Below are positions 6,001 to 24,917 of a stretch of 24,917 nucleotides of DNA, in pieces. Numbering within the stretch: position 1 is the first letter of the stretch; every line of letters starts with the position of its first letter. A program made the position numbers and the translations under genes. This stretch comes from Monosiga brevicollis MX1 (lineage: Eukaryota > Opisthokonta > Choanoflagellata > Craspedida > Salpingoecidae): contig NW_001865053.1 of the NCBI RefSeq assembly GCF_000002865.3, positions 904,097 through 929,013 of the forward strand, given 5' to 3'. Below the pieces are notes generated by a model that was not told the origin of the DNA, did not search any database, and saw only the letters and a list, made by a program, of their open reading frames with translations.

Positions 6001-8375
6001 ACCGTGCGTATCTTCTCCAGACAAAACCCTCCATGTGCAGATTCACGCTTTTTGTGCCTCACAGCTGTCATGTATCCCATTGTAATAGGGCCGGATGAAC
6101 CCAAAGCCCTGACTCCCTTTTTTCAACTGCAGCTTTTGTCGCCCAAATCCATGAAGCTTCTTCCAGACACTCGGTTCGACCCATGCCCGGTCGCGAGCAG
6201 CCTGTTCTGCCAACTTGGGCAAGTAGCGCTCTATCTCATGCTTGCACCTGCCCTTCAGTATTGAATATGATTTGCATCACCACGTGACCTCCTTTGCGGC
6301 CGTGCGCCTATCTTCAAGCTTGAACAGCACCGGCAAACAGGTTTGTCTTTCTGCCTGTTCCACCCGGGCTCTGGGTGATTTTGTCGGCTCAAAGGTGTGA
6401 GCTGAATACACTGTGGCCCGTTTCCTTACTTCATATGTCCTGGATAGAATTACATTGCAGTCGGTGTGACATTGCTGGAAGGTCAACGCGCCACCACAAC
6501 GGGCTTTGTACGCTTCAAATCCCAGGCTGCGTTTGCGGATTTCTTTCTCACATCTAGAGCTGGCATTGTGCTAATGCTGGTGGGCACCAAAATCTTATAG
6601 GTGGACTTTTACACTGTGGATGTGCATGATGGCAAGGAAACTCGCCTCGAGGTGAGACATCCAATCTCAAACGGCACTTGGGACTTGGCGACATGTGGGC
6701 AAAACACCACAGGACGTTTTTAAGCATCTTCATCACATTGGTGCATGGTGATCTAGAAACGAGCCAGCTGCAAGCAGCCTGGGTGTGTGTCGGCCATGGA
6801 TTGTACCGAGGATGGCTTTCTTGTAGCAGCCGTGGGCCAGCGCTTGGGGTCCAAGGTACGCCACTCAGCCTGTGTGGTCATTTGGCGCTGCAGTCGTGGT
6901 GCAAGCAAATCCTTCAACTCGTGTCCAAGTTTAATTTCATGCCGCTGCTGCCAATGTAGATTTACGTATGGAACTTTCAAGACGGGCAGGAATTGCAACC
7001 TTTGGCGTACTTTGAAGCCGGGGTGAGAACCTGCTGACCGTTGGGGACCGTACTACCTGTAGAATCTGACACGCGAATAACTTTTGCGCATCTTTCCGGT
7101 AGATCTACACCTCATGTATCCGAGTCATTAAGAATCTGGCCATTGTTGGAGACTACGAGTCGGGCGTCCAGTTACTGCGATTTTCCAGGGTTAGTTTGCC
7201 GTGTTTCGGCATTGCGGGCTGCAACATTTGCCCATCGCTTGACCACCTGCCAAACTCAAAAAGTCTTTGCATATGGTAATTGGCGTGTCATCTCGTGCCC
7301 GGTTTAGCAAAAAGGCCTGCAGCAAATGCCGGTATTTCGAGGCACCAAGCACCGCTTTTATTCCTTGGTCAAAGTGGGCGCAGATCCTCACAAATCAAAG
7401 TATGTTGTTGGTTCATTTGCTTTCCTCGAATCCCGTCATCATCAGGGAGCGATCGACGTTGTTTCTCGTCTTGGAGTAGCCCGACTCGTTGTTGCATTTG
7501 TAGCTTCGTGTCCATACGTGGGCGTTTGTGTGACCGCCTTTTGTTTGGTTTTGGGTGCATAGTTGTTACTGCGCCGACTTTGTGGTTCGCGAAAGCGATT
7601 TGGCCATGATCTACGGTGATGCAGATGGCAACCTGGTTGCGCTGGACTACGATGCTGACAGTCAGTTTCGATGGTCTCGTGATGCACCTTGCGCCCAAGT
7701 TATTTGTGCGATACCGTGGCACGAGCTCAGTATGTGTGTTGGTATCATGGTATGTTCTGCGATCGCTCCCCGGGTTGCTGCAGGTCCTGACACGCGTGGC
7801 GGGCGCATTCTCGTGCGCTCTGCCAACTTTCACTTGGGCACGCGACTGAGCGCCATGTTGCGCTTGCAAGCGGCGCCCGTGGTGCGAGCACCGGGCGGAT
7901 TGGCAGAAGCACAAAAGTGCCACGTTGTCCACACCTTTGGGATTGAGGGCCAGCAGGGCGTGGTGATCCCATTGCATGAGGCCGAGTATCGCCGCCTGGA
8001 GATGCTGCAGAAAAAGCTGGTGTCGCATTCGTCACTTGCGGGCCTGCATCCATTTCAATTTCGGTTTGTCAAGACGTTTTTTTTTTTTTCCTTAATTGCT
8101 TGGCATTGGCGTCGTGGGGCAGCGGCTATCCCATGGCATGTTCCCCGGTCATGTCAAGTAACTCATCAATGATTGCTGGGTGGTGTAGTGCCTTCAAATC
8201 ATCCATCTGGCGACCCCGTTCATTTGCCCAAGGCATTTTGGATGGTGCTCTTCTTCGCCAATACTTTTGCTTGGGTCGGCGTGAACAGCTGGACGTTGCA
8301 GAGCAGCTTGGTGTCTCAGCCCAACAGCTGGAGCGAGACATGGCTCATGCCTTGGACGCGGCCTTTTATCTTTGA
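2..8375 (+). CDS. CPSF1: Cleavage and polyadenylation specificity factor subunit 1 (CPSF160), 5'-partial, 41 exons
   Basis: CPSF160 is the scaffold of the module (with WDR33, CPSF30 and FIP1) that recognises the polyadenylation signal in the nucleus. I followed similarity to human CPSF1 from exon to exon. Exons: 2-91, 250-332, 433-466, 603-706, 790-908, 990-1063, 1181-1249, 1367-1468, 1590-1708, 1793-1882, 1975-2098, 2211-2336, 2449-2515, 2668-2720, 2809-2875, 3038-3059, 3189-3249, 3405-3500, 3629-3692, 3795-3854, 3934-4205, 4307-4444, 4527-4751, 4835-4894, 4999-5110, 5194-5258, 5366-5467, 5624-5716, 5800-5850, 5934-6003, 6089-6173, 6259-6340, 6448-6507, 6601-6651, 6757-6855, 6960-7022, 7103-7189, 7308-7399, 7563-7660, 7784-8063, 8189-8375. 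All introns are GT-AG and all phases agree, giving 1,331 residues plus stop. Landmarks: ALVYGCRLVIIP, GYTTPTALLLHEPRPVW, the acidic DDEDDFLYGE, and the CPSF_A end ILDGALLRQYF. Roughly the first tenth lies left of the window. Weakest calls are the starts of exons 4 and 38 and the donor of exon 15. Confidence 0.93.
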
Positions 8376-9086: not shown

Positions 9087-9900
<814 letters not shown>

Positions 9901-11616
9901 ATGGCGTCGCTCGCGGCCTATTTGGCCGCTAATTATGGCCCAAATGCGTCGGGTAAAGAGCCGGATGAGGGACGGCAGCGACGGAAGAAAAAAGTCAAGC
10001 GAGCGAAAGTCGTTCAAGGTCTCCGAATCCGAGATGCTGATGTGGATGCTCTGCCCTCTTCTGAGCGTCAAGTGATTGAAGATGATCCAGTCCTTGTGGA
10101 CGAGCAGGGACGTGAGATTTCGTTGACAATCAACGAGCAGCAAATCTTGCAGAGCGAACACCTCGGGCCATCTGCTGCTTCGACGGCCGACGCCTCGCCA
10201 CCACGCCGTCAGCGTCACGACAGCCCCGATGCCTCGCCACCGCGCCGTCAGCGTCACGACAGCCCCGATGCCTCGCCACCGCGCCGTCAGCGTCACGACA
10301 GCCCCGATGCCTCGCCACCGCGCCGTCAGCGTCACGACAGCCCCGACGCCTCGCCACCACGTCGTCAGCGTCACGACAGCCCCGACGCCTCGCCACCACG
10401 TCGTCAGCGCACCGGTGGCACGGACGCTTCACCACCACGACGCTCGCGAACAGCTAGCAAGCGGTCCGCTTCTCTCACAGATCAGAGCCACGAAGATGCG
10501 TCCCCACCCCGACGACGGGCCGCCAATACCTCCGACATTGAGGCCCAGCTCCAAAACCTAGCCGGTCTTCAAAATGCTGCTGCTTTACGTCAGGACCTAG
10601 AACTTCGTGCGGTGCGACCTTGCCTATCACCCAGACCTTGTTTTCGCGTGTTTTTCTCTATTCATCGTGACCATCTTCTCTCCCTGCTCTCCCCCCCCCT
10701 TTTTTTTTCCTTCCGGGGTACGCAGGCAGCAGAGCAGCGCATGCTAGATGCACTCGGGGATAGTGCTGGGCACGGTCAAGAGACCGTGCATCGTGATAAG
10801 AGGTATGTCAGTCAGATCTTCATGCCAATCTGTCTCCCAAGTTTCTTCGGCTCACTTGTTATGCTGCGACAGTGGTCGTCGACTTGATCCGAAGTTGGAG
10901 CGTCTGCGGAAGCGGGAGATGGAACAAAAACGAGAGGAGCTTGAGCAAGAACAAATGGAATGGGGCCGCGGGTGGGTTCATTGTCATGGCGCATCATTAT
11001 TTTGCCTTTTGTTCAGCTCATTTGCCTTGCCCTTCGTACAGTCTGAAACAAACTCGAGATGCTCAGGATCGCCGCGCAGAAATCGAGCACGAGATGAGCA
11101 AGCCACTGGCTCGATCTCGCAATGACGAAGATCTTAATAAAGTCGGTTTGCAGCTTGTCCTCACCCATCGCTTCTCCTTGCCCCATACGCTGTCCTTTCC
11201 TGGCATCAGGCCTCCACAGGCTGCAGCATCTTCTGACTTTGTGTGCTTTGCATTCTCTGATCATTGAGCGCAGATGCAAAGAGATGAAATTAGGGCCGAG
11301 GATCCAATGGCGGCCTACATTATGAAGCAGCGTGAGCAAGCTTCGGGCAAGCCGTCACGTCCTCGCTATCGTGGCCCACCCGCGCCTCCAAATCGGTTTG
11401 GTATTGAGCCAGGTCTGTCATGTCACGCCCACCCCTTGTAGTTAATTTTACAAGGAGTGCACGTCAAGTGACCCTTGCTTTTTGCCAATTTATGCAGGCC
11501 ATCGATGGGATGGACGAGACAGGTCGAATGGCTTCGAACAGCGCTGGTTTCAGACTAGAGCACGGGGCGCAGCAGTAGGCAAGGATGCCTACAAATGGTC
11601 CGTTGAGGACATGTAG
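9901..11616 (+). CDS. BUD13: BUD13 homologue, subunit of the RES (retention and splicing) complex, 6 exons
   Basis: BUD13, with SNIP1/Pml1 and RBMX2/Snu17, forms the RES complex that joins the activated spliceosome and aids pre-mRNA splicing and nuclear retention. Exons: 9901-10611, 10726-10802, 10873-10971, 11042-11141, 11274-11412, 11498-11616. All junctions are GT-AG with matching phases, giving 414 residues (human about 619). It starts MASLAAYLAANYG, followed by a basic KKKVKRAK segment, then eight DASPPRR motifs. The C-terminal half has the family blocks DKSGRRLDPKLERLRKRE, MSKPLARSRNDEDLNK and EDPMAAYIMKQ. It ends with RPRYRGPPAPPNRFG, GHRWDGRDRSNGFEQRW and the terminal KWSVEDM, nearly identical to animal BUD13. 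In yeast the equivalent Trp-containing C-terminal peptide docks on Snu17. The chosen ATG is the first in frame and matches the usual N-terminus. Confidence 0.95.
10189..10422 (+). repeat. 39-bp coding minisatellite in BUD13 exon 1 (DASPPRRQRHDSP)
   Basis: Five consecutive 39-bp copies encode DASPPRRQRHDSP with only a few synonymous differences (GAC/GAT, CCA/CCG, CGC/CGT). A sixth copy at 10384-10422 diverges at its end (RTGGT). Two looser DASPPRR motifs follow at about 10423 and 10494. The same 13-residue phrase is typical of animal BUD13. Confidence 0.95.
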
Positions 11617-12218: not shown

Positions 12219-12523
12219 TTAGAGCCCTGTGGTCGGTTTGAGACGGTTAACGTGCGAGTACATCTCTTCCAGCTCCTCATCTATTGAGACAAAACAATGA
12301 ACAAATGAGATGGTCGATTCGATGAGTGCAATGTGCGACAAAACTGTTCACACGGAATGAGTCTCGCAATCGACAAAACGCACGGGTTTTCTGGCGTTCA
12401 AGAGTGCTCATAGCAACAGATTCGGAAGTTTCAGAAGGTGCATTGCTGCCCTTGCGGCGATGCTTCTTCTTCTTCTTCTTTTTGTCGACACGAGCGGCAG
12501 AGACAGGCACCGGCTCTTTAAAC
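12219..12523 (-). other. Two probable 3'-terminal exons of the giant receptor gene
   Basis: Exon 12523-12384 enters in phase 2 and encodes 46 residues, FKEPVPVSAARVD, a seven-lysine run, HRRKGSNAPSETSES and onward to ERQKT. It ends at a GTGCGT donor in phase 1. Exon 12280-12219 follows CTCAATAG and adds HEELEEMYSHVNRL, ending KPTTGL and stop. Both phases fit. No room exists upstream for a separate gene, so joining to the giant ORF is the simplest reading. The predicted total is 3,415 codons downstream of 22766. Confidence 0.68.
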
Positions 12524-15500
12524 CTAACAATAGTAAGTGAGGGGAAGGAGAGGGAAAAAAAAAAAAAAAAAAAGGGCGTGAATAAGAGCTAAGGAACAAG
12601 GGTTTGATGTCACAATGCAGATTTCAACAACAACAACAACAACAACTGTTGGAACATGAAGCACAAAAAACAAAAAACAAAACAAAAACAAAGCAAAACA
12701 AAAGATATTAATTGACGCACGTTACGGCATCTGGGTCCTCCGACGGCTCATCATCAATGTGCCCGGCTTCTTCGTCGAAATTAGCTTCGTCAAACTCCTC
12801 CTCTTGGTCACGATGGCGATGGGCAAAGGTATAATCCTCATCTTCACTATCCAAATCCTGCGCAGCGGCTTTAGCCTTGCGCGTAGCCATGCTATAATCA
12901 TCCTCCTCATCTTCAGCAACAGGGGCCACGCCAGTGGAAGCAGATCGGGGGGCCACAGCATGCTTGGCTGTTGATCGACCCTGTCGAGCCATCGCATAGT
13001 CATCCTCATCGTCTTGGGCTTCCGAGCTCACGGGAGCCGGCATGCCTCGCGTCTTGGCGACGGCAGCTAGGCTCGATTTACGACGTGCCATAGCATAGTC
13101 TTCGTCCTCATCTTCCTCGTCAATGCCAGCGCTTCGTACAGGCACAGCAGCCGACTTGCCAGCGCGTAGCATGCTCGACTTTCGTCGCGCCATGGCATAA
13201 TCGCCGTCGTCGTCGTCGTCGTCGTCTTCGACAACGTCATCATCACCACGACGGGCGCCTCCGCGTTGCATCAAGCTTGATTTGCGTCGTGCCATGGCAT
13301 AAACGTCATCATCTTCGCCGCTGTCGCCATCGCGGTGATGAGACCCAGCTGACTTGACAAAGCGCCGGTTCGCCATCGCGTAGTCGTCATCGTCGTCGTC
13401 GTTGTTGACTTGGCGGTTTGCAAAAGTGTAATCATCCTCGTCAATACCAGCAGCTCGGACACCGTTGGCAAAGCCGTAGTCATCGTCATCAAAGTCCGCG
13501 CCCGCCGCTGCATTGCGATTTGCAAAGGCATAATCTTCCTCGTCATCAATGCCCGCCAAGCCATAGATATCGCCGCCTGCACCAGCCTTGCTACGGCGTC
13601 GACCCTGGCCCACGTCGCCAGCAAAGCTGTAGTCACCATCGCCATCAGCACCAGAGACACCACCGGCAAAGTTGTAATCGCCTTCGTCCGCATCTCCGGT
13701 GTCATACTTGACGCCACCGGCAAAGTTGTAATCGCCTTCTTCCGCGTCTCCGGTGTCATACTTGACTCGGCCAGCAAACTGATAATCCCCGTCACCAATG
13801 TCACCCATGTCATACTTGGCGGCAAACCCATAGTCACCGTGGTCATCATTGGCGGCTTGCTCGTATTTGACACTGCGGTGATCACCCTCAGTGTAAGCAG
13901 CATAGTCATGTTCTCCATCCGAGGCGTTGCCGTACAGGCCTGCAGTACCTTCGGGCATCTCCTCATACATGGGCGCTCCATTCTCATCGTAGCCCACGAT
14001 GCGTGGCTGTAGATACTTGCGATCATCAGCATTCGGATCTGCGTAGGTATCGGAGCCAGGCCCACCCCGTCGATTCTCATCAAATAGGACATGGATACTG
14101 GGGCGCGAGCGCATGGTCTGCTCTTCCTTCTGCTTGCGCCGTCTCCATACCAGGGCAATTAACACAAGTGCCAAAATTATGAAAGCTGCAACGCCGATGA
14201 CCACGCCAAGTCCCAGAGCTGACTGCATGAATGACTCATTTCCAGGTTGGTCACCCGTGGAAGATTGGAGAATGAGGATTTCGTGACAACTCTGGTTGCT
14301 ATAGTTGTAGGTTGTCACAGAGCTGTTGGAGTCCACGCGAGGCGACGTGTAGGATCCCGACGTAGCGAAGCACATGAAGCTACCGGGCTGGGTCGCGTTT
14401 GTATCAACGATTACAACGACCTGTGCGGTCACCTGCGCAGTCGGTGCAAAGCTTGATACATTGACCGCCTCCTGCAGCTGAACGGTGTACGAGGCGTTGC
14501 CCGACACAGAGATGGCACCGAGCACTTCCTCAGCACGTACGACCGAACCACTTTCGTGAGTGACTGTGGCTGTAAAAGCCATGGTGCGCAGCCCGGATGT
14601 TGAGTTGACCTGCACAAAGTCGTGGGCGACGCGCACGATCGGGCGATAAAACACAAAAGATTGGCGCTGTGATGCCGATGAGTTGTCGCTTGCCGAGCCT
14701 GCGTCAAGGTAGAGCACCTGGCCATTGGGAAGATCAGCGTCAACAAGCTTGGCAGTAAATTCCACCACCAAGGTGTCGTTGCTCGAAATCACGTTGTCCG
14801 GAAAATTGGTCACTTCGCCGAAACGGAGAGTCAGCGTGTTGGCAGCCAAACTTTCGTTCACAGCTGCCCGTCGTCGGCGCGCGCCGGCAAAAAGATCAGA
14901 AGATGGGTCACTGCTGGCAGCGATGGTCATCAAGTTATCTTCCGACACATTGATCGTTGCCCCTGCGGCGCGTAGCTGCACGTCCACCAGAGCAAGATGT
15001 ACCCGCCCGTCGACAACAGATGGCACGTGCGCCGTCACTTCGAGCCCGCTGGCACGCCCTTCAGGCAGCTCAATTGTCACATTCGTCGACACGGCTTGCC
15101 CCATCACCAAGCCATTGGCCGGGGCTGGGCTGGAGTCACTGAGAGGCGTGGCCAAAACAACGTCTGGCATCTCACGCGTTGCCACGGTGAGGGCGAGTGA
15201 GCGATGCGCAGTGCGCAATGGCACGCTGGGACGTGTGAAGTACGTCAAGTTGCAGCGCGCAGAAAACGTCGAGGCCAGCAGGATGGCATCAGACATGCGT
15301 ACAGTGTAGCGAAGATCCAGGGTTTCACCCAAGTTGATGCGCGGCGTATTAAGTTGAACATCTTCCAACCCAGTGAAGGCCGCTATTGTGCCGCTCGGGC
15401 CATTCTCTGAGCTATTGGCAAAGTTGTCCACCGCTTGAAACTCCAGTGAGGCGTCCAGATTAGCACGCGTGACCACCACAAAAGCTGGCCACGTTGAAGT

Positions 15501-18500
15501 TGGAGCGTGTTCGATGTGATGCACTAGTTCATACAGATCACCCGCATCGCCAAGGGTAGATGCGGGGGACACTGTCCACGTATGCACGAGCTCGGGCGCA
15601 ACCACGTTGATATCGGTTTCAAAATTCGACTCGAGATTCACAAACGTGACGGCGACAGCAAAGTCACCTGAAACTCCACTGTACGTCACGCTGTCATCAT
15701 CTACCACCTGCACGACAATAGAAACCTGCAAGTCGTCCTCTGTGCCCACGTGCACGCTCTCAACAATGTTCTGAATGGCGCCAATGTCCAGGGTTACAAT
15801 GCCATTTTCCTCCACGGCTTCGGCTTCACCAAACGCGAACAAATCGCGGCCCAATGGCAGGGGCTGTACGTTGAGGCCAATGTTCTCGACGCCGGCACTG
15901 ACAGCCGAAAACATGGGGACACCCGTGGTTGGATTGCGCGGAAGCTCAATCTGTACGAGCAGGTCGCCGACACCACGCATGGCAATGGCAAATGTGAATT
16001 GGAGTTGCTCAGCAATGGTCACGTTCGGGAGCTGAGATTCGATGTCGTCAATGTCCTCGATAGTTACGTTAAGGTCTAGATAGACAACCCACAACGTGTT
16101 CCAGGTGGCAAAGTCAAAGTACTGGCGGCCACGACCCACATGAAAGCTGGAGTCGTATTGCAGAGCAACTGAATTGTTGATGTCTGCTCCACGCGGCGCA
16201 TCGGGTTCTACTCGAGCTTGAACCGTGAAGATGACCTCTTCTGTCTCTGACACATTGCCAAAGTAGTATTGTACAATCGTCTCCTGGCCCGATGCCACAG
16301 GCGTCGTTGTCAGAGCACGTGGGCTACTTGAGCCATACACGGTGCCCTCATAGACAAGGAAACGACCAAGCGTCACGTTGACTGATACGTCATGGCCAAA
16401 CGAGCGGGTCAATCGGACCTCAAAATCAACAGGCCCGCCTTGCTGCACGAACGGGTCTGTGAACTGGTCAATGTCGAGGGACAGCGTAGGCTCTGCCACA
16501 AGGAAATCAAGGCTGTACGCATCAGCAACTAGCGTTGCATTGTCAGCACCACTATACGTCAGCATGGTGGTTACGCGTAAGTCTCGCGTCACGGCGTTGA
16601 TGGGTTCATTAAGAACAAGCATGATCAGGTCAATCCATAAGCGGTCCGCTGACGATCGCCTGTTGTCTGGACGATTAAAGCACACACCCAGATCAAGGCC
16701 AAATACGTTACCACCGAGGTCGGCCAAGCTTTGTTCATGATAGTCTGTGCAAGCCAAGTTTGAGCCCACAAAAATGTTGTGGGACACCAAAGAAACACCT
16801 TCTGTTGGCAAAGAGATATTCAACGAGTAGTTGGAAACACCCTCGGGCAAAATGTACTCGAGTCGCTGATAAATAAATTCGTCCACCGTTACTGAGAGAT
16901 TTGCTGTGAAAGGGTTGGATGTGCTAACGTTGGTCATGTGCACAAGAGGCCCAGCCAGAGGAATGGCCAAGCCGGTGGCAGCTTTCACGTACGGACGGCC
17001 GGGGCGGAGGAAAATATCACGGCGATGCGAATCATAAGTCGCATTGAAGGCGGCAACCAAGCCCTCCGCTTTTGGGTGGATGAAATCAGTCACCACGGCA
17101 TCAATTGTGATCCATGTGCGTGAGGCATTGGGGGTGAGAGTGGGGATGGTCACCTCTAGGTATTGGGGTCCTAGCTGCTCATAGCCGTCTGCAAATGCAC
17201 CGACATCAATCGCCACGATTTCCACATAGGGGTGTAACTCGATGGACACGAGCATGTCATGGGCTGATGCCGTCGAGTTGGGCAAATGTGCCAGGCTAAA
17301 GCCGTATTTTACGATATCGCGCGCATCTGTGGGGTTCATGGCCATGGCGTCAACCGTTAAGAGGAGCTGCGGCTCGGCAATGGTAACATTATGCTCCTCG
17401 CGACGCGCCGTGGACACATCGTAGGCTTGGTGTGTGTAGCGAATTTCAGCGGCCAAAGGCAATTGTGCACCAAGGGTGTTCCTAGGATCATCGTCCACGG
17501 ACACTACTACGTAAGCCGCGATAATATCTTTCTTGTCAGCGACATTGTCGTAAATGTTCACGCACGAACCAAAGTCCAAGGCAAGTGTCGTGTTTGTGGC
17601 AGTGATGGCCGGGGGGGACACGGAACAAATGATGTTCTCTCCATACTCGTAGTTGAAGTCGTACGCAAACGTGGCAGGATCGCCAGCAAAGCCAACCTCA
17701 ACCGTTAAGTTGAGCGTCACCTCTGGTACCGTCACAAATGTGATCGTTGTGAATGTTTCATGAATGGTAGGGGCCCACTCGGGTGTGGCCAAGTCCGATG
17801 AGACGTAGGAACTAAGCTCAAGCGTGGGCTGATCGATGACGACAGGCACCGATGTGTGAGCTAGCGTATAAAAGCGACCTGGAAGGTCCGGGCGGAAACT
17901 ATAGTTGGCATGGCTATCGTGCAGACTGTTAGTGATGCAGGTGACACTCGCCATGTCTGGCAGGATGCGCTGCAGAATGCGGGCAGTAAAATTGACAAAA
18001 AGATAGCCATTGTCCACCGTCAGCAAATCCAGCGTCATGTGGATGGAGCGCCTGTCTTCCGAGACGGTCAGGTCAGGGTTCATCTGCAATTCCGTAACAT
18101 TCTCGATCACCAAATCTGGGTGGATCGTCAAGTTGACCGTAATGTCGTAGGCAGGGCCCAATGATGCTGGCGTGTGCGAAAGGTTGATGCCAAACTGGAC
18201 AACATCGCCAGCATCGGCTGGAACAGGCGTATCTTCTACTGAGGCAAAAAGATTAAGCAGGGGCTCAGAAATCGTGTAGCTCTCCAAGATGCTCATAGTG
18301 GGATCCAACGGCGTCAAGTCTAGCGCCCCAATGCTGTAGTACACGGTGCCGTGAATGCCCTTTGACTCCCCGTTGAAGTTGCGAGGAGCATCTTGGGGGA
18401 TGGCCTGAATCCAGACGATAATACGGTCTCGGTCATCTTCAACCTGGTCATAGAAATTGACGCAAGCGCCAAAGTCAAAGACGCGCGTGTCGCGTTGGAA

Positions 18501-21500
18501 TGCGACGGAGTCCACCGGGGCGCCGCTTGCGTTGCACTGAATCTGGCTCCCAATCGTAATGTCGAAATCCAAAAACTCCCAGTCTGAATATTCTTCCTCA
18601 TCAAACTGGAAACGGACTAACATGGTGCCTTCAGGCAGCGTCGCCGTGAGCTGGAGTCTCACTATTTCGTCGATGTTCAGCAGAGGCGGTGTTTGTGTTT
18701 CAGGCAACGACGAATTTAGCGTCTGAAGGACTGCAACTGCACGGTCTACCGTAACACGAGGCGCGTCCGTAGTGCGTTCATAGTCCCGTCCTGTGTTGGC
18801 CCAGATCTCGCCAGGATAGCTATCAAAATCATCGATCATTGTAGTAATAAGGTTACTATGATCAGGGACAACAGTTTGCAGCATACGCGCACGGAAGCTG
18901 AAATATTCCACCCCGTCGTTTGGTGTGAAGACAGGGGTATACCACGTGATTGTTCGGTTGTCCACCGCAATGGTATAGCTTGAACCCAATGAGCCGAGTT
19001 CACCACCATCCGGGATAACGTGTATTACATCATCAAGTTCTGCACGAACGTAAAGGTCAAACGCCGCAGACAACGGCGAGCCCGTGTAGGTCACGGAAAA
19101 GTTGAACGTGATCACATCGCCAGCATCGACTGGGGTCAACGGATCAGTGGTTGCCGCCAAAATAACGTCTGGTTCGTGCACGGTAACAGCTTGAGTATCC
19201 GAGTACTGCGTCGCATCGGCCGTCACACGGGCCGTCGCAGTAAGCACTGCTCCCTGCACCGCGAACGTGTCATCATCGACTTGGGCTACAACCTCGATTA
19301 TCAAAATGTCGTTGCTGTCCTCGACGTTATCGGGCGAATTGCGAAATTGACCAAAATCAAACAAGATTGTATAAGGTGACTGCTGAGCAACATGCGTCCC
19401 AGCCACGAGACTCGTGTCGATGTTGGCACCTACGTGCACTACCGATGCAGTGCGGTAAGAGATTCCATTTGGTAAAGTTACTAGAACGTTCGTGTTTGCC
19501 TCCACTTCTGGCATGGTCACGCTGACACGATACACGACTTGCTCATGCACGTTCACATCAGTACCCAACGTTTCTGCTACAATGGATGTGTTGTGCAGGT
19601 ATAAATCAATCTCTACAAAGTCCATTGTTGCCGTGATCACGTCAGCTACGTCGGGATACAGACCACCTTCGTTGTACTGACGTCCATTCAACGGAGCTGC
19701 TGAGGTTGGCACAGAGGCGTAGTCCAAACGAACCGAGGCAGCAATCACCTCTTCTGGCCGCACAGTTTCATCAACTCGTACGACGTAAACAAGGTATATC
19801 TCCGCCGAAGCCGAATTGTCCAGGTTCTCGACGGTAATCGTAAAGTAGGAGCTGTTGATTTTGTTGAAGACCCCACCTGCACCAGCAGTAACGATGGTCT
19901 GTACGGTTGCATCGTATACGTCATACTTAGTTGGAACATCGACATGGATGACAATCTTATAAGCCTGAGCTTGAGAATGGGTCATGTCATGAGTTACGCG
20001 CACCTGAAAGGTGACGTTGTCGCCCGCATCTGGCTCATATGGAGCCTGGTCATCAGAGATAATCACAGACAGACGCGGCTCAACAGCCCGAAATTGGCGT
20101 AAGGCATTGATGCTCACGCTGGCCGTGTTGAAGTCAGAGTCGATCGTCACGATGGGCCGGGTGATGGGGCTGGCCTCATTTTGCAAACCGCGATTCATCG
20201 GGTCATCGATTAAGCGAAGCACAATTCGATATGTAATCTGGTCGCCAGCATTGGGGCCGATCTGGTCAAATGTGTTTGTCACAACACCGTGGTCAAAGGT
20301 CAATGTTGTACCTGCAAAGCTGATGTCGGAACTTGACGCTAAGCTATCACCTGCGCCGGCCTTGGTGCTCGATATTTGGGAGCCAAATGAGTGCACCGTG
20401 GCTGTCAAAACTTCAAAGTTGATGGGAATGTCCAGTGTAGTCACCACATCAGTTTGAGACTCCGGCATGGTTAAGATGTAGTCAAAAGTGATCTCCTCCT
20501 CGATCGCCACATTGTACGGCGCAGACTCGGTGTTAGTATCCGCGTCGGCGCTCGTGACACCCACGTAAGACAGGGTTGCGCCATCGATGGTTGTTTGAAA
20601 CGTATTCGAGCCCGTGTTTTCACGACCCGGAAACTCATTGGCTGAAGGAGCCGTATCCCATCGATAGTCGATGTCATGAACCAACAAGTCTTCTGGTTCA
20701 ACAACTTGCAGTACTTGACCAACGACAGACGCATGCAAGCGTTCATTCAGATCCAAGCGCGCAACATAAATCTCCAGATGGTCAGCAAAGTGCTCAATAG
20801 AATCTGCACTTCGCCCCCCGTTGGCCAAGCAACTAGCAAGGGTCACACCCGCGGTGGCACTGTCCGTCGTGACACACCCCACGGTGTAATCGGGTTGAAT
20901 CTGCGAGCGCGGATCAAAGGTCACTGTCAAAAGCACGTCATAGGCCTGGGCAGCATAGCTTGAGCCATCGTGATAAAGCGTGTACTCGTAGGTGATGTTG
21001 TCACCAGCATCCCCACTGTAGGATCCAATTACATCGTATGATTGCAAGTTCGGTGCTTGAAGTCCTAAAGATGTAAAGGTGTCTCCAGTCGTGTACCCGT
21101 CCGCAGTCAATGTCACACTGTAATCAAGCGTTGAACCACGATCAACAGTGTTCAGCTTGGACGAATCCAGACGAACAAAGGCATCCACAACCACCTGGTC
21201 GATGCTATCGGGAATCTCGGAAGGCACATTAGCCGTCTCACCAAAAACAAATACAAAGTTGTTGTCTGACAAAAGAGCAAGGTCGCCAGGACCAGCTAGG
21301 GTTGGGGCTCCAAGTGAAATGTCGCTGTCAACCGAGACGATCGTGGCATTGAGGAGGGTGACATACGAGTCGTCAAAGGTATAAACCAAGCTAAGGTTGC
21401 TGTTCCCCTCAGGCAAGGTAATGAATGTGCGGAATGCAACGACCTCATCGATATAAAATTGCTCGTCTGGCATAGAGTCATCGATGGAAGTAAACGAGAT

Positions 21501-24500
21501 ATCGATAGATATGACTGGCCTATCCGTGTCCAGGGATACCACGCTTGGGCTAAGGCCCGCGATACGTCCCATGTTCGACCCAAAGCTGACAGCGGCAGAG
21601 TCGTAATGACCGCTTGCTGAGATTTGGTAGGTCGAGTCAGGGCGTACTGCTGATCCAGGAAGCATGACGGCTTCCCAAGTGATGAACAAGAGATCGCCCA
21701 AGAGCAAGCGTGGCACGTGAATGAAAAGCTGACGGTCAACGTCCGAGGTGACGAAAAAGAGCTCATTGACGACTGGCTCACAACCAAGCACGCACAGGAC
21801 TGATGCGCTGTCCACTTGAAGGCCGTCATCCAGCACCATGGTCAGATTGATATCGTACGCCACGGAATCAGACACTGGCTGATGAGATACATTGTAGTGC
21901 ATGAAAATGCGATCGCCAGCATCGGATAAAGTGTCAGCAGGATTGCGCGCCACGATAGCGAAGGTATCCAAGTCCAACTCAGGCTCAATCACGAGAAACG
22001 GCAAAATCGTAGGGATGAGGACAGTCTTTGTATCGTACCGAAGCTCAGCTGTCATTGTGAACGATGCGCCACGCTGAACAACCAGTGAGTCTTCGATATT
22101 GAAATACAATCTGACAACAAAAGTATCCGTCGAGGGAATGGCAGCATCAGCAACATTGTCAAACACATTGACAAGAGACGAGGAAAAAGAAAGGTAAACT
22201 CCATTCTCATCACCGACTTGCATAAAACCCGAATCAAGCGGCTGAGCCGATTCAAGTTCGAGGTGCCCATCGTAAACGATAGCAAGGACATCGTCAACAA
22301 AAAAGTCGCCATTGGAGATGTAAAAGTCGACTTGAATGTCGGTGGTGGCTTCGGGAAGAGTGACCGTGACATCGATCATGACCATCTCTCCAACTGAAAC
22401 GTTGTTTTGGAGAGTTTCGGAATGTGAGGTACCGAAAAAGGATAGAGTAGCGGTCGGAGCCGGTACCACCAGCACAGACCCCGAGTCCATTTCATAGCTA
22501 GCCACAACCGCAGGGTACGCCCGCGCAGACGCCTCCGTCAAACTCGAATACGTCAACGTGTTGTTGCCGACATCCGTCACATTCTCATCCGGCCGGATCG
22601 CCTGCACAACAACTCCGTTCCACGCCAGGTTCACCTGCTCAGTCACCAGCAAGCCCCGCGACAGCACAAGTTCCACCGTGCTGCCCACAAAGCTCACGTC
22701 TCCCGAGCAGTCCTCCGTACCCGCGCCCGTAATCGTACACGTCACGCTCCCAGACTCCACCGACATCGTCCCACAACATCGTACGCTGGCGCATCAGACA
22801 CCACCGCGTGGTCAATCGTCGCCGTAAACGCATACACGTCGCCCGCATCCACAGACGCGCCATCGTTGCCCACCGGCAGTGTTGTCGTGCGCGACACATT
22901 CAGCTCCGGCTCAACTACCGTCACCTGATCGCTCACCGACCCGCTGCCGATCTCGGTGCCATCAAACGTCACCCGGCTCACAACAATCGCCGTGTCGCCA
23001 CGCACGTTGCCGCCGTCCGACGCGGGCACGTACACTGTCACGTTCACGCGCACTCGGTCCCGCGCGGGCGCCAGCGCATCGTCCGTGTACGCGTTGGTCG
23101 TCTCGCCAAAGTCAAACGTAATCGTGTCGCCACTCACCGTCGCCGCGTCGCCCTCGTTCAGGCTCACGCTCGTAATGTCGCTGCCCATCGACTCAACAAA
23201 GCCACCCACGGCCACAAAGTTCGCCGAGCGTCCTGGGTCCGATGCCACCTGCACGCTCACAATAAGCGCACCCGCGCCATCCGGCAAGTCCACGTCCACG
23301 CCAAACGTCACCAGCTCCTCCAGTCCCGTAAACGGGTCGACCGTCGCCGCATCATTGCTCGACACGTACGCAATCGCCTGCTCCGGCTCTGTCGTTGTAA
23401 AATTTTGAAGCTCGGTATTCTTAAAATAATTGACTCCACCCATTGGTGCTGTGTCATAGGTGAAGCTTGTGTTGATACTATACTTTGTATTCCATCGAAC
23501 TTCACTTTCTGGCAGTAGTTGCACATTGAAAAGGAACGAAAAAACCTGTGGGAAGCTGCTTCTCATCTCTGTGATGGAGAAAAACACATCTTGCAGATCT
23601 GCCGCCTCAACAATGGTATATGTACCATCAGGGCAGAGCGGACAGTCGAATGAAGCTGGCATCAGCTTGCTGGAAATAGGTACGGTCGACTGCAGATCAA
23701 AGTTGAAGGCATCGCCATCTGATCGAATAAGCGTGACATTGTAAGACAGGATGTCACCAGCATCGGCCAGGGTTGGAGAAAGACTGGTGATAGAATCAAC
23801 ATTGGCTTCCTCAATCATCGCTGTGATGTTAAACAGCGTTGTCAAGCCATCAATAGTCACATTCACCGTGACGTTGACGAATTGATCATCGTAAGTGTGA
23901 TCCGGCTCGACAAGGAGCTCAAGGTGCACTTGGAGCAAATCAAACGAAGGACTTGCAGAAGCCGAGCGTTGTATAGAAACAAAAGGGAACTCAACTGAGC
24001 CAAGTGAAAGAGAGCCATTGCCGAGCGGGCCTGAACCGGCAATACCATCAGCAGGAAACTGAGAAACGAACGCGGAGTGAACGGAAAACTCTGGATCATC
24101 GAACGTGATAGAAACAAACACGTCGCCAAAGCCCTCAGGAACATACAAGTTTGTCAGAATGGTTAGCACCTCAGTCTTGAATAAAAGACCCGAATCAATA
24201 GAACCGAAGGAGGAGGAGTAAGAAATGTTGGAACTCGAAGGTAAGGTGCTCACGCTATCCGTCTCCTCGCCCAGCGAGTAGAATCGCCCCGCAATGTCGT
24301 CGTCGTCCGCAGGGCTGCTCTCAAACGTCGTGTTGGTCACCACATTGTACGTGCTGCCATACCGCACCGCGCTCGTAGGCGCAAGCGTCGCAGTCCACAC
24401 AACCGTCGCCGTCGCGCCCTCCGCAACGCGCTCAATCCGCACTGTCAGCACCGTCGAATCTGCCCCGTCCACAGACGAAGCAAAAGCGCCCGTGCATCCG

Positions 24501-24917
24501 GCGCTGCAGATCACGCTCCCCCCATTCACGGAAAGACCCGTGTCATGCACCGCAATCATCTCAACGTCATACGCGTCCACGTCCTGGCTCGGCCCCGGTG
24601 CCAGCGTGTAGCTAAACGACACTACATCACCGGCATCCAGGCCGCTCGTCGCACTCGTCACCTCAACCGTCTGCACCAGCGAGGGCTCCCGCACAACGTA
24701 GCTCAGCGTCTCCGCCGCCGATACCGCAGGCGTCTTGCCGTCATAGCTCAGCTCCGCACCCACTTGGATCGAGCTCCCGCGCACCGTCGGCGTGTCGTCC
24801 AACACATAAAACTCAAACTCAAGCACAATGTCGTCCTGCGAGTCCGATGTCTGGTCAAACACATTCTGCAACGTCGACAAGTCCGCGTAAATGCTGCCCG
24901 TCACAGGGTCCGTCGTC
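12219..24917 (-). CDS. Giant single-pass membrane receptor: DUF11/fimbrial-like repeats, TM helix, multi-tyrosine tail (N-terminus outside window)
   Basis: Coding runs right to left: a frame open from the window edge to 22742 (about 720 residues), then a 3,352-codon ORF from 22766 to 12708, with two likely 3' exons at 12523-12384 and 12280-12219. No signal peptide is in view because the start is beyond the edge. From the N-terminus the visible order is: about 12 ectodomain units rich in N-x-S/T sequons; a RRRR site (14868-14879); a transmembrane helix (14222-14145) followed by RRRK; and an acidic tail with 16 Y-x-[FLM]-A motifs. The layout is that of an adhesion or signalling receptor at the plasma membrane. 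I do not recognise an orthologue. Ectodomain residues resemble bacterial DUF11 repeats. The frame break near 22750-22790 may be an assembly error. Ligand and partners are unknown. Confidence 0.85.
12524..12720 (-). other. Probable 3' intron of the giant receptor gene, containing the main-ORF stop
   Basis: On the coding strand a GTGCGT donor, the form used repeatedly in CPSF1, follows the second base of the Thr codon in DPDAVT. The acceptor comes after a run of nearly 20 T, CCCTCTCC and TTACTATTGTTAG. The intron is 197 nt and holds a (GTT)n run. The stop at 12708-12710 lies inside it, so retention would give the short ending VTCVN. Confidence 0.7.
12822..13835 (-). repeat. Cytoplasmic array of 16 acidic Y-x-[FLM]-A motifs
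   Basis: Over about 1 kb the tail repeats an acidic run, then tyrosine, a small residue, Phe/Leu/Met and Ala. In order: YGFA, YQFA, YNFA, YNFA, YSFA, YGLA, YAFA, YGFA, YTFA, YAMA (five times), YSMA, YTFA. Membrane-proximal copies are followed by Gly, middle copies by NR or NG. Three distal copies read YAMARRKSS. Acidic residues just before Tyr are a classic tyrosine-kinase substrate setting, so the array probably forms many phosphotyrosine docking sites for SH2 proteins. Further tyrosines lie between this array and the membrane (YADP, YLQP, YEEM, YGNA, YEQA). Confidence 0.92.
13206..13226 (-). repeat. Seven-unit trinucleotide repeat coding an Asp run
   Basis: Seven GTC units on the plus strand (GAC on the coding strand) encode a poly-Asp stretch just before one of the YAMARRKSS copies. 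Triplet expansion may have built the acidic runs that precede the tyrosines. Confidence 0.9.
14145..14222 (-). other. Transmembrane helix of the giant receptor
   Basis: Twenty-six uninterrupted non-polar residues run from SALGLGVVIGVAAF to a Trp. RRRKQKEEQ follows at once, a stop-transfer signal. The basic flank puts the multi-tyrosine part inside the cell (residues 2849-2874 of the 3,352-codon ORF). It is the only clear hydrophobic helix in the visible protein. Confidence 0.93.
14868..14879 (-). other. Possible proprotein-convertase (furin-type) site RRRR in the ectodomain
   Basis: The segment reads DLFAGARRRRAAVNESL. It sits in a loop of the last PEG lobe, about 215 residues before the membrane helix. 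Other units have no similar basic insertion here. RRRR followed by small residues fits the R-x-[KR]-R furin rule. Cleavage is inferred. Confidence 0.45.
22490..23395 (-). other. GC-rich ectodomain block 2, one repeat unit long
   Basis: This block of about 0.9 kb again has C/G-biased third positions. Both flanks are AT-richer. It spans one PEG lobe plus one DAGD lobe, so both edges fall at unit boundaries. It also contains the only frame break seen in the gene. Confidence 0.7.
22742..22790 (-). other. Frame break in the giant receptor ORF
   Basis: The upstream frame reads through DAPAYDV and stops at 22742. The downstream frame opens just before the Met at 22766 and continues SVESGSVTC. In sister units about 15 residues separate AYDV from the S-V-x-C block. 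Here only 26 nt do, about 19 nt short. DAGD spacing across this unit is 926 nt, not a multiple of three, unlike its neighbours. It could be an assembly or sequencing loss, or a true mutation. Confidence 0.75.
24240..24917 (-). other. GC-rich ectodomain block 1 (runs to window edge)
   Basis: From about 24240 to the edge, third codon positions are mostly C or G, unlike the AT-richer coding sequence at 23396-24239. It holds the end of a PEG lobe and a whole DAGD lobe. The switch falls in the linker after the DAGD lobe, without a frame change. Confidence 0.7.

Follow-up and report, generated by a model that had tools for sequence, protein, structure and literature searches.

What might be the use of a membrane protein that repeats a single tyrosine motif sixteen times in its tail? 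This question is raised by a gene on the reverse strand of a 24,917-nucleotide stretch (the window) of the genome of the choanoflagellate Monosiga brevicollis MX1, contig NW_001865053.1, in which sixteen Y-x-[FLM]-A motifs follow one transmembrane helix and a very long ectodomain. Judged from its sequence, the product of this gene, hereafter the window protein, is probably, with moderate confidence, a type I surface receptor or adhesion protein that has no kinase of its own and carries a multivalent phosphotyrosine docking tail. The original prediction, made from the letters alone, had raised the possibility of a choanoflagellate host, and the genome (39.5 Mb in 57 contigs) bears this out: all 248 residues compared from the RTKC8 kinase stretch (taken from structure 8e4t) were found exactly, in three pieces on contig C21, and the published RTKC8 peptide around Y1990 has an exact match as well.

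A Giant Putative Receptor

The main open reading frame (12708-22793, reverse strand, 3361 codons) holds ectodomain, transmembrane helix and tail. Together with the overlapping frame in which the ectodomain continues, it gives about 4,000 residues within the window, so that the protein is indeed as giant as had been claimed, and since the window ends at the contig end, the N-terminus (5' end) is lost. The change of frame falls at 22742-22793, where no plausible intron was seen, and either reflects an indel introduced in sequencing or assembly or is a true frameshift. The single transmembrane helix that had been placed before the array was recovered as the sole clear one (Table 1); a second 19-residue window, at residue 330 of the frame, barely exceeds 1.6 in hydropathy and was taken as soluble. 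The helix region matches the ErbB1 transmembrane-juxtamembrane model weakly (18.4 bits, cut-off 27.1). The distribution of N-glycosylation sequons, 51 in 2858 ectodomain residues versus 1 in 478 tail residues, fits the outside and inside of a type I topology.

No kinase domain was matched by Pfam in the main frame at E up to 1, and the matches to the window protein were all below cut-off, none of them to LAT. Given that the lost 5' end lies on the extracellular side and that the predicted 3' exons are short, the protein does not qualify as a receptor tyrosine kinase, a class defined by an intracellular kinase domain. Up to its in-frame stop the tail comprises 478 amino acids, with 27 tyrosines and a net charge of -65, and it is probably disordered. 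A splice model with two GTGCGT donors would replace that stop by a polybasic stretch and the C-terminus KPTTGL, and the predicted T-G-L end, which hinges on this inferred model, would fit the class I PDZ ligand pattern, S/T-X-hydrophobic at the C-terminus (PMC8512817).

The Tyrosine Array

The pattern Y-x-[FLM]-A occurs 17 times in the main frame, once in the ectodomain (17859-17870) and 16 times in the tail, where it takes up 16 of the 27 tyrosines; the number of motifs first reported thus stands. In 20,000 composition-preserving shuffles of the tail, the mean was 0.27 motifs and the maximum 4. The search pattern itself requires the tyrosine, F, L or M at +2 and Ala at +3, and within these bounds the +2 residue is F in nine copies, M in six and L in one, with Ala at +3 in all 16. 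Position -1, of which the pattern demands nothing, is Asp in 14 of the 16 copies and Ile and Val once each, while +1 is small or polar and +4 is A, G, N, R, T or H. The statement that each motif follows an acidic run is right for 15 of 16, which have at least two D/E at -5 to -1, but not for the I-Y-G-L-A copy (13554-13565), which has only one. The residues after the motif change along the tail, with Gly following most proximal copies, Asn several of the middle ones and RRKSS three distal ones, so that the flanks are acidic before the motif and, in the distal part, basic after it (NR or RRKSS). The RRKSS sequences resemble sites of basophilic kinases. Among the 11 other tail tyrosines are one K-Y-D-M-G and two K-Y-D-T-G; the tail contains no NPxY, and its one Yxx[LIVMF] (YEEM) and two YxxP (YADP and YLQP) lie outside the array.

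The silent sites suggest that these copies are not recent. The first and second codon bases of the motif are identical (1.0) through the choice of pattern; at the third base, the mean pairwise identity is 0.21 for the +3 Ala, at the level of chance and with all four codons in use, and 0.50 for the Tyr, and positions in the flanks range from 0.23 to 0.49. Because the silent sites are saturated, most copies appear to be old and, apart from a 54-base tandem repeat (13656-13787, about 2.4 copies), to have been kept one by one. The +2 Phe codons present an unexplained bias, TTT in 9 of 9 in the array, with 96 TTT and 44 TTC in the whole frame (a chance of about 0.03 by codon use). Searched against the genome, the tail found only itself, in a search whose first pass admitted one candidate and may miss short repeats, and the D-Y-A-M-A coding pattern occurs at two places, both inside the array.

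The Motif Class in a Paralogue and in Receptor Kinases

The ectodomain, used as a query, finds one other gene, on contig C56 (about 732381-746071, reverse strand; 25% identity over 910 query residues, E 3.7e-41). This paralogue, with its homologous ectodomain, has EGF domains over cut-off, units of the DAGD/LPE type, one transmembrane helix and a 700-residue tail, in which 13 sites fit Y-[DEG]-[MILR]-[GA]: eight Y-D-[MI]-G, one Y-E-L-G and four Y-G-[RML]-A. The residue at -1 is Ile or Val in 12 of the 13, versus Asp in the window protein. Under a wider class, defined as Y-x-[FLMIV]-[AG], 12 of its 35 tail tyrosines qualify (mean 1.3 and maximum 8 in 20,000 shuffles); under the narrow Y-x-[FLM]-A, three do (shuffle mean 0.31, maximum 5). 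Its tail also found only itself in the genome, with the same single-candidate first pass and the same possible loss of short repeats. The proximal part of this tail carries G-[IV]-Y-type sites as well.

The wider class includes 17 of the 27 tyrosines of the window tail and 24 of 336 in open reading frames 3' of kinase domains, in a sample of 30 loci drawn from at least 169 PK_Tyr_Ser-Thr matches by exon (Ser/Thr kinases included); these 3' frames are putative exons, and CAP-Gly-like sequence holds at least two of the 24 sites. Eleven of the 24 come from the six loci most similar to RTKC8 (50-56% identity), where they make up 11 of 28 post-kinase tyrosines, against a mean of 1.06 and a maximum of 6 in 10,000 shuffles; the limits of these RTKC-like tails were set manually, at the CAP-Gly-like part if one was seen and, in L015, at an arbitrary point. 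Seven of these 11 sites are L-Y-D-[ML]-G, and Y-D-[MLV]-G or Y-E-[FL]-A is present in the tails of all six loci. The tail of RTKC8 itself (L056, C21:291900-294600, reverse strand) has five LYDMG in a row in one 194-residue frame, and one of them is the published Y1990 peptide ASDNELLYDMGRAEA (PMC10263333). In vitro, the RTKC8 kinase phosphorylated Y1990 (LLYDMG) fastest among three tail peptides; the excerpted text of that study counts 10 tyrosines in the tail and makes no mention of a LYDMG repeat (PMC10263333). Genome-wide, the coding pattern for L-Y-D-[MIL]-G has 23 hits, eight of them in receptor kinase loci already examined, and that for [IV]-Y-D-[IM]-G has 12, of which five belong to the C56 array; reversing the pattern gives 5 hits in either case.

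Two further observations concern the kinase loci. L029, L035 and L036, the last two being near-duplicates, form a different group of receptor kinases and have T-I-Y-D-[FL]-A-[IL]-D-D-[LM]-E-I right before the stop, which includes a Y-D-[FL]-A site. The 3' frames of L012, L014, L029, L035 and L036 contain acidic Y-x-N sites (DIYSNE, MYGNVD, EIYDNE, DIYDNE), the form of Grb2-type ligands.

Comparison With Known Phosphotyrosine Systems

It had been proposed that the motifs match none of the textbook ligands pYxxM, pYxN and pYEEI. They do fall outside every SH2 ligand class in Table 2 of PMC9783222 (+3 hydrophobic, +2 Asn, +4 hydrophobic, pYxxQ and SPT6 type), with F, M or L at +2 and Ala at +3 in 16 of 16, unless Ala, which might act as a weak hydrophobic residue, is counted as a hydrophobic +3. 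The genome has at least 114 SH2 matches by exon and 13 PID (PTB) matches at E up to 0.001, and an SH2 domain is favoured over a PTB domain as the reader because the tail is devoid of NPxY.

LAT has a tiny ectodomain and mixed tyrosine sites, whereas the window protein has 16 copies of one site. The two have in common a single transmembrane helix and a kinase-less tail with multiple tyrosine sites, but the ectodomain of the window protein exceeds 2,800 residues and no homology to LAT or TRAP was seen. p130Cas is a cytosolic protein whose YxxP sites are read by Crk/Nck; the window protein lacks YxxP repeats, and no relation between them is expected. The resemblance to these proteins would be one of design: LAT and other transmembrane adaptors are kinase-less membrane proteins that form clusters and draw in SH2 adaptors through acidic tyrosine sites (PMC5889215, PMC8791637), and the substrate domain of p130Cas, with 15 YxxP, has many copies in a disordered stretch where multivalency drives clustering (PMC8791637).

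Closer comparisons come from M. brevicollis itself. The tail of RTKB2, with six RM2 repeats, is also a series of tandem acidic tyrosine modules on a receptor, but RM2 is a unit of about 80 residues, borne by a receptor kinase and reported in RTKB kinases only (PMC3584944); set against two published RM2 peptides, both with a hydrophobic +3, the array differs in its +3 Ala (16 of 16) and its spacing of 11-34 residues. The RTKC family comes from the same organism and has Y-D-[MLV]-G or Y-E-[FL]-A in its tails, but its members have a kinase and mostly, as published, CAP-Gly (PMC10263333), and their tails showed no more than five copies, the -1 residue being mostly aliphatic and +1 Asp/Glu; in the window protein no kinase was found, and there are 16 copies with Asp at -1 in 14, small or polar +1 and Ala at +3. 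By the tests made, the window protein falls outside the LAT, Cas, RM2 and receptor tyrosine kinase families, and it does belong with the tails grouped by Y-x-hydrophobic-[A/G], namely the RTKC8-like ones and the C56 paralogue. The novelty resides in this motif class and in its sharing between kinases and kinase-less receptors. No paper on the window protein or the motif was found in the literature by title and start of abstract; Manning et al. 2008, reportedly the main kinome paper, may describe it.

Proposed Mechanism

Receptor or cytoplasmic tyrosine kinases, recruited on clustering, would phosphorylate many of the 16 sites, mostly D-Y-x-[FM]-A. Once phosphorylated, the sites would be occupied by multiple molecules of a single SH2 protein (or, with lower likelihood, a PTB protein) recognising pY-x-hydrophobic-[Ala/Gly], and this binding would gather adaptors and receptors into clusters, as with LAT or p130Cas. 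The same readout would be common to the RTKC-family kinases (mostly L-Y-D-[ML]-G) and the C56 paralogue ([IV]-Y-D-[MI]-G and Y-G-x-A), and the window protein may, as first suggested, act as a hub. Phosphotyrosine has been observed in choanoflagellates by western blot (PMC11984502), a source not drawn upon here.

The -1 residue, Asp here versus Ile or Val in the paralogue, together with published kinase preferences, suggests that each of the giant receptors has its own kinase, while a common +2/+3 signature serves for the readout of both. In addition to the RTKC8 result, M. brevicollis RTKB2 was most active on E4YM4 (an acidic run, Tyr and Met) out of four peptides (PMC3584944), and in animals ZAP-70 favours an acidic context with Asp at -1, whereas Src kinases favour Ile, Leu or Val there (PMC5889215).

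A reader can be named only as a long shot: the STAT of M. brevicollis, for which the array would be a docking platform of up to 16 sites. A peptide from a putative STAT of this organism, KKKASGYVMADIA, contains Y-V-M-A (PMC3082566), and its Y-x-M-A form is the same as that of six array sites; if Y-V-M-A is, as assumed, the STAT's own activating site, one would expect the STAT SH2 domain to recognise pY-V-M-A within the dimer. Phosphorylation of the STAT peptide by HMTK1 was not significant (PMC3082566). The peptide was sought in the 55 loci examined and not found, and the gene was not located. As regards HMTK1, the genome contains 18 bases of a published primer twice, in one case adjoining a kinase with an HMD loop and the expected IMGVFEAT start; the second primer matches with 20 bases downstream, its 34-base longer form not being found, and the activation loop reads EGQDYWQSK here versus EGDQYWQSK in print.

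Several points weigh against a docking tail read in this manner. No class of the SH2 table combines a small +3 residue with a hydrophobic one at +2 (PMC9783222 Table 2), and the SH2 partner reported for a repeat tail in M. brevicollis is the more ordinary MbSrc1-RM2 pair (PMC3584944). The literature found holds no phosphorylation or binding datum for the tail of the window protein. All motif comparisons were made within the one genome of M. brevicollis, and the six RTKC loci were chosen after the motif was known. Genome-wide, D-Y-[NSDG]-F-A is found 18 times versus 19 for the reversed pattern, which is no enrichment in the codon set tested; four of the 18 places are in the array and the 14 others are scattered singles, and this variant could therefore serve another use than Y-D-φ-G. 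Under an acidic filter (at least two D/E at -4 to -1), the class is found in 0 of the 24 tyrosines that pass in the 3' frames of the 30 kinase loci, versus 15 of 17 in the window tail and 7 of 15 in the paralogue. The statement that receptor-kinase tails lack the motif, which the filtered count had prompted, was dropped once the unfiltered count showed Y-D-φ-G in the RTKC tails.

From the genome-wide, RTKC and acid-filtered counts, it follows that Y-D-φ-G is the recurring signal, and that D-Y-x-[FM]-A looks special to the tail of the window protein. The lineage-specific docking code of the original prediction thus has to be narrowed: the wider class does recur in receptor kinase tails of the same organism, and one of its units is a kinase substrate in vitro (PMC10263333), but the form that recurs is Y-D-[MIL]-G and not D-Y-[NSDG]-F-A. 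It is conceivable, albeit rather doubtful, that pY-x-hydrophobic-[Ala/Gly] constitutes a separate docking alphabet of M. brevicollis, used in RTKC kinases and in both giant receptors without a kinase, with readers from an SH2 class that is missing from animals or was never put to this use there.

Alternative Explanations

The motif could function without phosphate, as a linear motif of the acidic aromatic type that binds some partner in trafficking or the cytoskeleton, its copies giving avidity. Acidic aromatic motifs are common non-phospho ligands, and 16 of the 27 tail tyrosines have both the hydrophobic +2 and the Ala +3. The established patterns of this kind (endocytic YXX-hydrophobic, NPxY and LIR) do not fit, NPxY being absent and YEEM lying outside the array, and a kinase does phosphorylate the related LYDMG unit in vitro (PMC10263333), all of which makes this explanation unlikely.

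Another proposal, itself a version of the docking reading that overlaps with the best explanation, is that the array docks Src-family kinases through an SH2 domain of the MbSrc1 type, with +2 and +3 serving kinase recognition only. The RM2-6 repeat of RTKB2, phosphorylated by MbSrc1, does bind the MbSrc1 SH2 domain (PMC3584944), which makes MbSrc1 a possible reader. However, the RM2 peptides EEVYGAVVD and EEVYEAIAD (PMC3584944) have a hydrophobic +3, the preference of Src SH2, and the array has Ala there in every copy; this restricted version is rather improbable.

The array may also be a sink or buffer which, once phosphorylated, builds no signalling complex but deprives the RTKC receptors of kinases, phosphatases or SH2 proteins by titration. 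It has the same motif class as their tails, in more copies and with no kinase domain found; yet the RRKSS sequences, the predicted polybasic exon and the predicted T-G-L end look like parts of a regulated scaffold, and a sink is quite improbable.

Low-complexity drift, in which tandem slippage in an acidic, Ala/Gly-rich tail multiplied an unselected motif, can claim the poly-Asp and Gly/Ala-rich composition and the 54-base tandem repeat, but it is very hard to credit when the spacers elsewhere are dissimilar and unequal (11-34 residues), the motif codons differ at silent sites and the class recurs in the C56 paralogue and the RTKC tails.

Ectodomain and Neighbouring Genes

The ectodomain is built of two-part repeats (Table 1), and the 10 units aligned are 18-28% identical to the first, the alignment leaving out one further unit at the frame change. 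PF01345 (DUF11) matches one stretch (E 0.003, 22.5 bits, cut-off 24.6) and, at E up to 1, nothing else in the genome; TIGR01451 matches weakly in the window protein (E 0.009) and in the C56 paralogue (E 0.0018), below curated cut-offs. These profiles suggest an adhesive rod of the DUF11 type, the likeness to the bacterial DUF11 and TIGR01451 repeats consisting of sub-threshold matches, every one under its curated cut-off. Pfam gave two weak families on the ectodomain units, each in 1 of 10 (E 0.015 and E 0.043); no solved-structure relatives were found at E up to 1, and of 19 stretches in prokaryote genomes that fit a search pattern, none was confirmed. The R-R-R-R in the last unit could be a furin-type (proprotein-convertase) site, cleavage at which would give a two-part receptor.

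Table 1. Features of the window protein gene, in positions of the window.
Feature	Position	Strand	Basis
N-terminal continuation of the ectodomain in a second frame, truncated at the contig end	22742-24916	-	reading frames
Ectodomain of about 300-residue two-part repeats (DAGD...AYD half and LPE...DFG...D half)	14688-24709	-	alignment
R-R-R-R before AAV, last ectodomain unit, about 220 residues before the transmembrane helix	14868-14879	-	sequence
Single transmembrane helix ALGLGVVIGVAAFIILALVLIALVW, then RRRK	14145-14219	-	hydropathy
Array of 16 Y-x-[FLM]-A motifs, spacing 11-34 residues	12822-13832	-	pattern match
Three composite Y-A-M-A-R-R-K-S-S-[LM] motifs (YAMA at 13290-13301, 13188-13199 and 13086-13097)	13071-13301	-	sequence
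Predicted exon 2, polybasic, after intron 12524-12720	12384-12523	-	splice sites alone, without RNA evidence
Predicted last exon, after intron 12281-12383, ending KPTTGL-stop	12219-12280	-	splice sites alone, without RNA evidence

On the forward strand, a neighbouring gene (9883-11267) has DASPPRRxRHDSP repeats (9883-10887) and a sub-threshold match to Bud13 (10800-11264; E 0.0007, 20.4 bits versus 27). An exon at 7534-8172, also on the forward strand, encodes a CPSF_A domain (E 5.5e-14), a domain of the CPSF160/DDB1/SF3b kind.

Implications for Choanoflagellate Signalling

Choanoflagellates have very many phosphotyrosine parts, and little is known of how these signal to one another. A kinase-less receptor with a multivalent docking tail, as favoured here for the window protein, would bring to this field a repeated, long-kept class of tyrosine motif that is common to kinases and kinase-less receptors of one organism. 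The question of which SH2 domain reads what in a choanoflagellate thereby becomes a peptide-binding experiment, and if the docking reading is true, the array would supply an independent example, from outside animals, of a high-valency phosphotyrosine scaffold.

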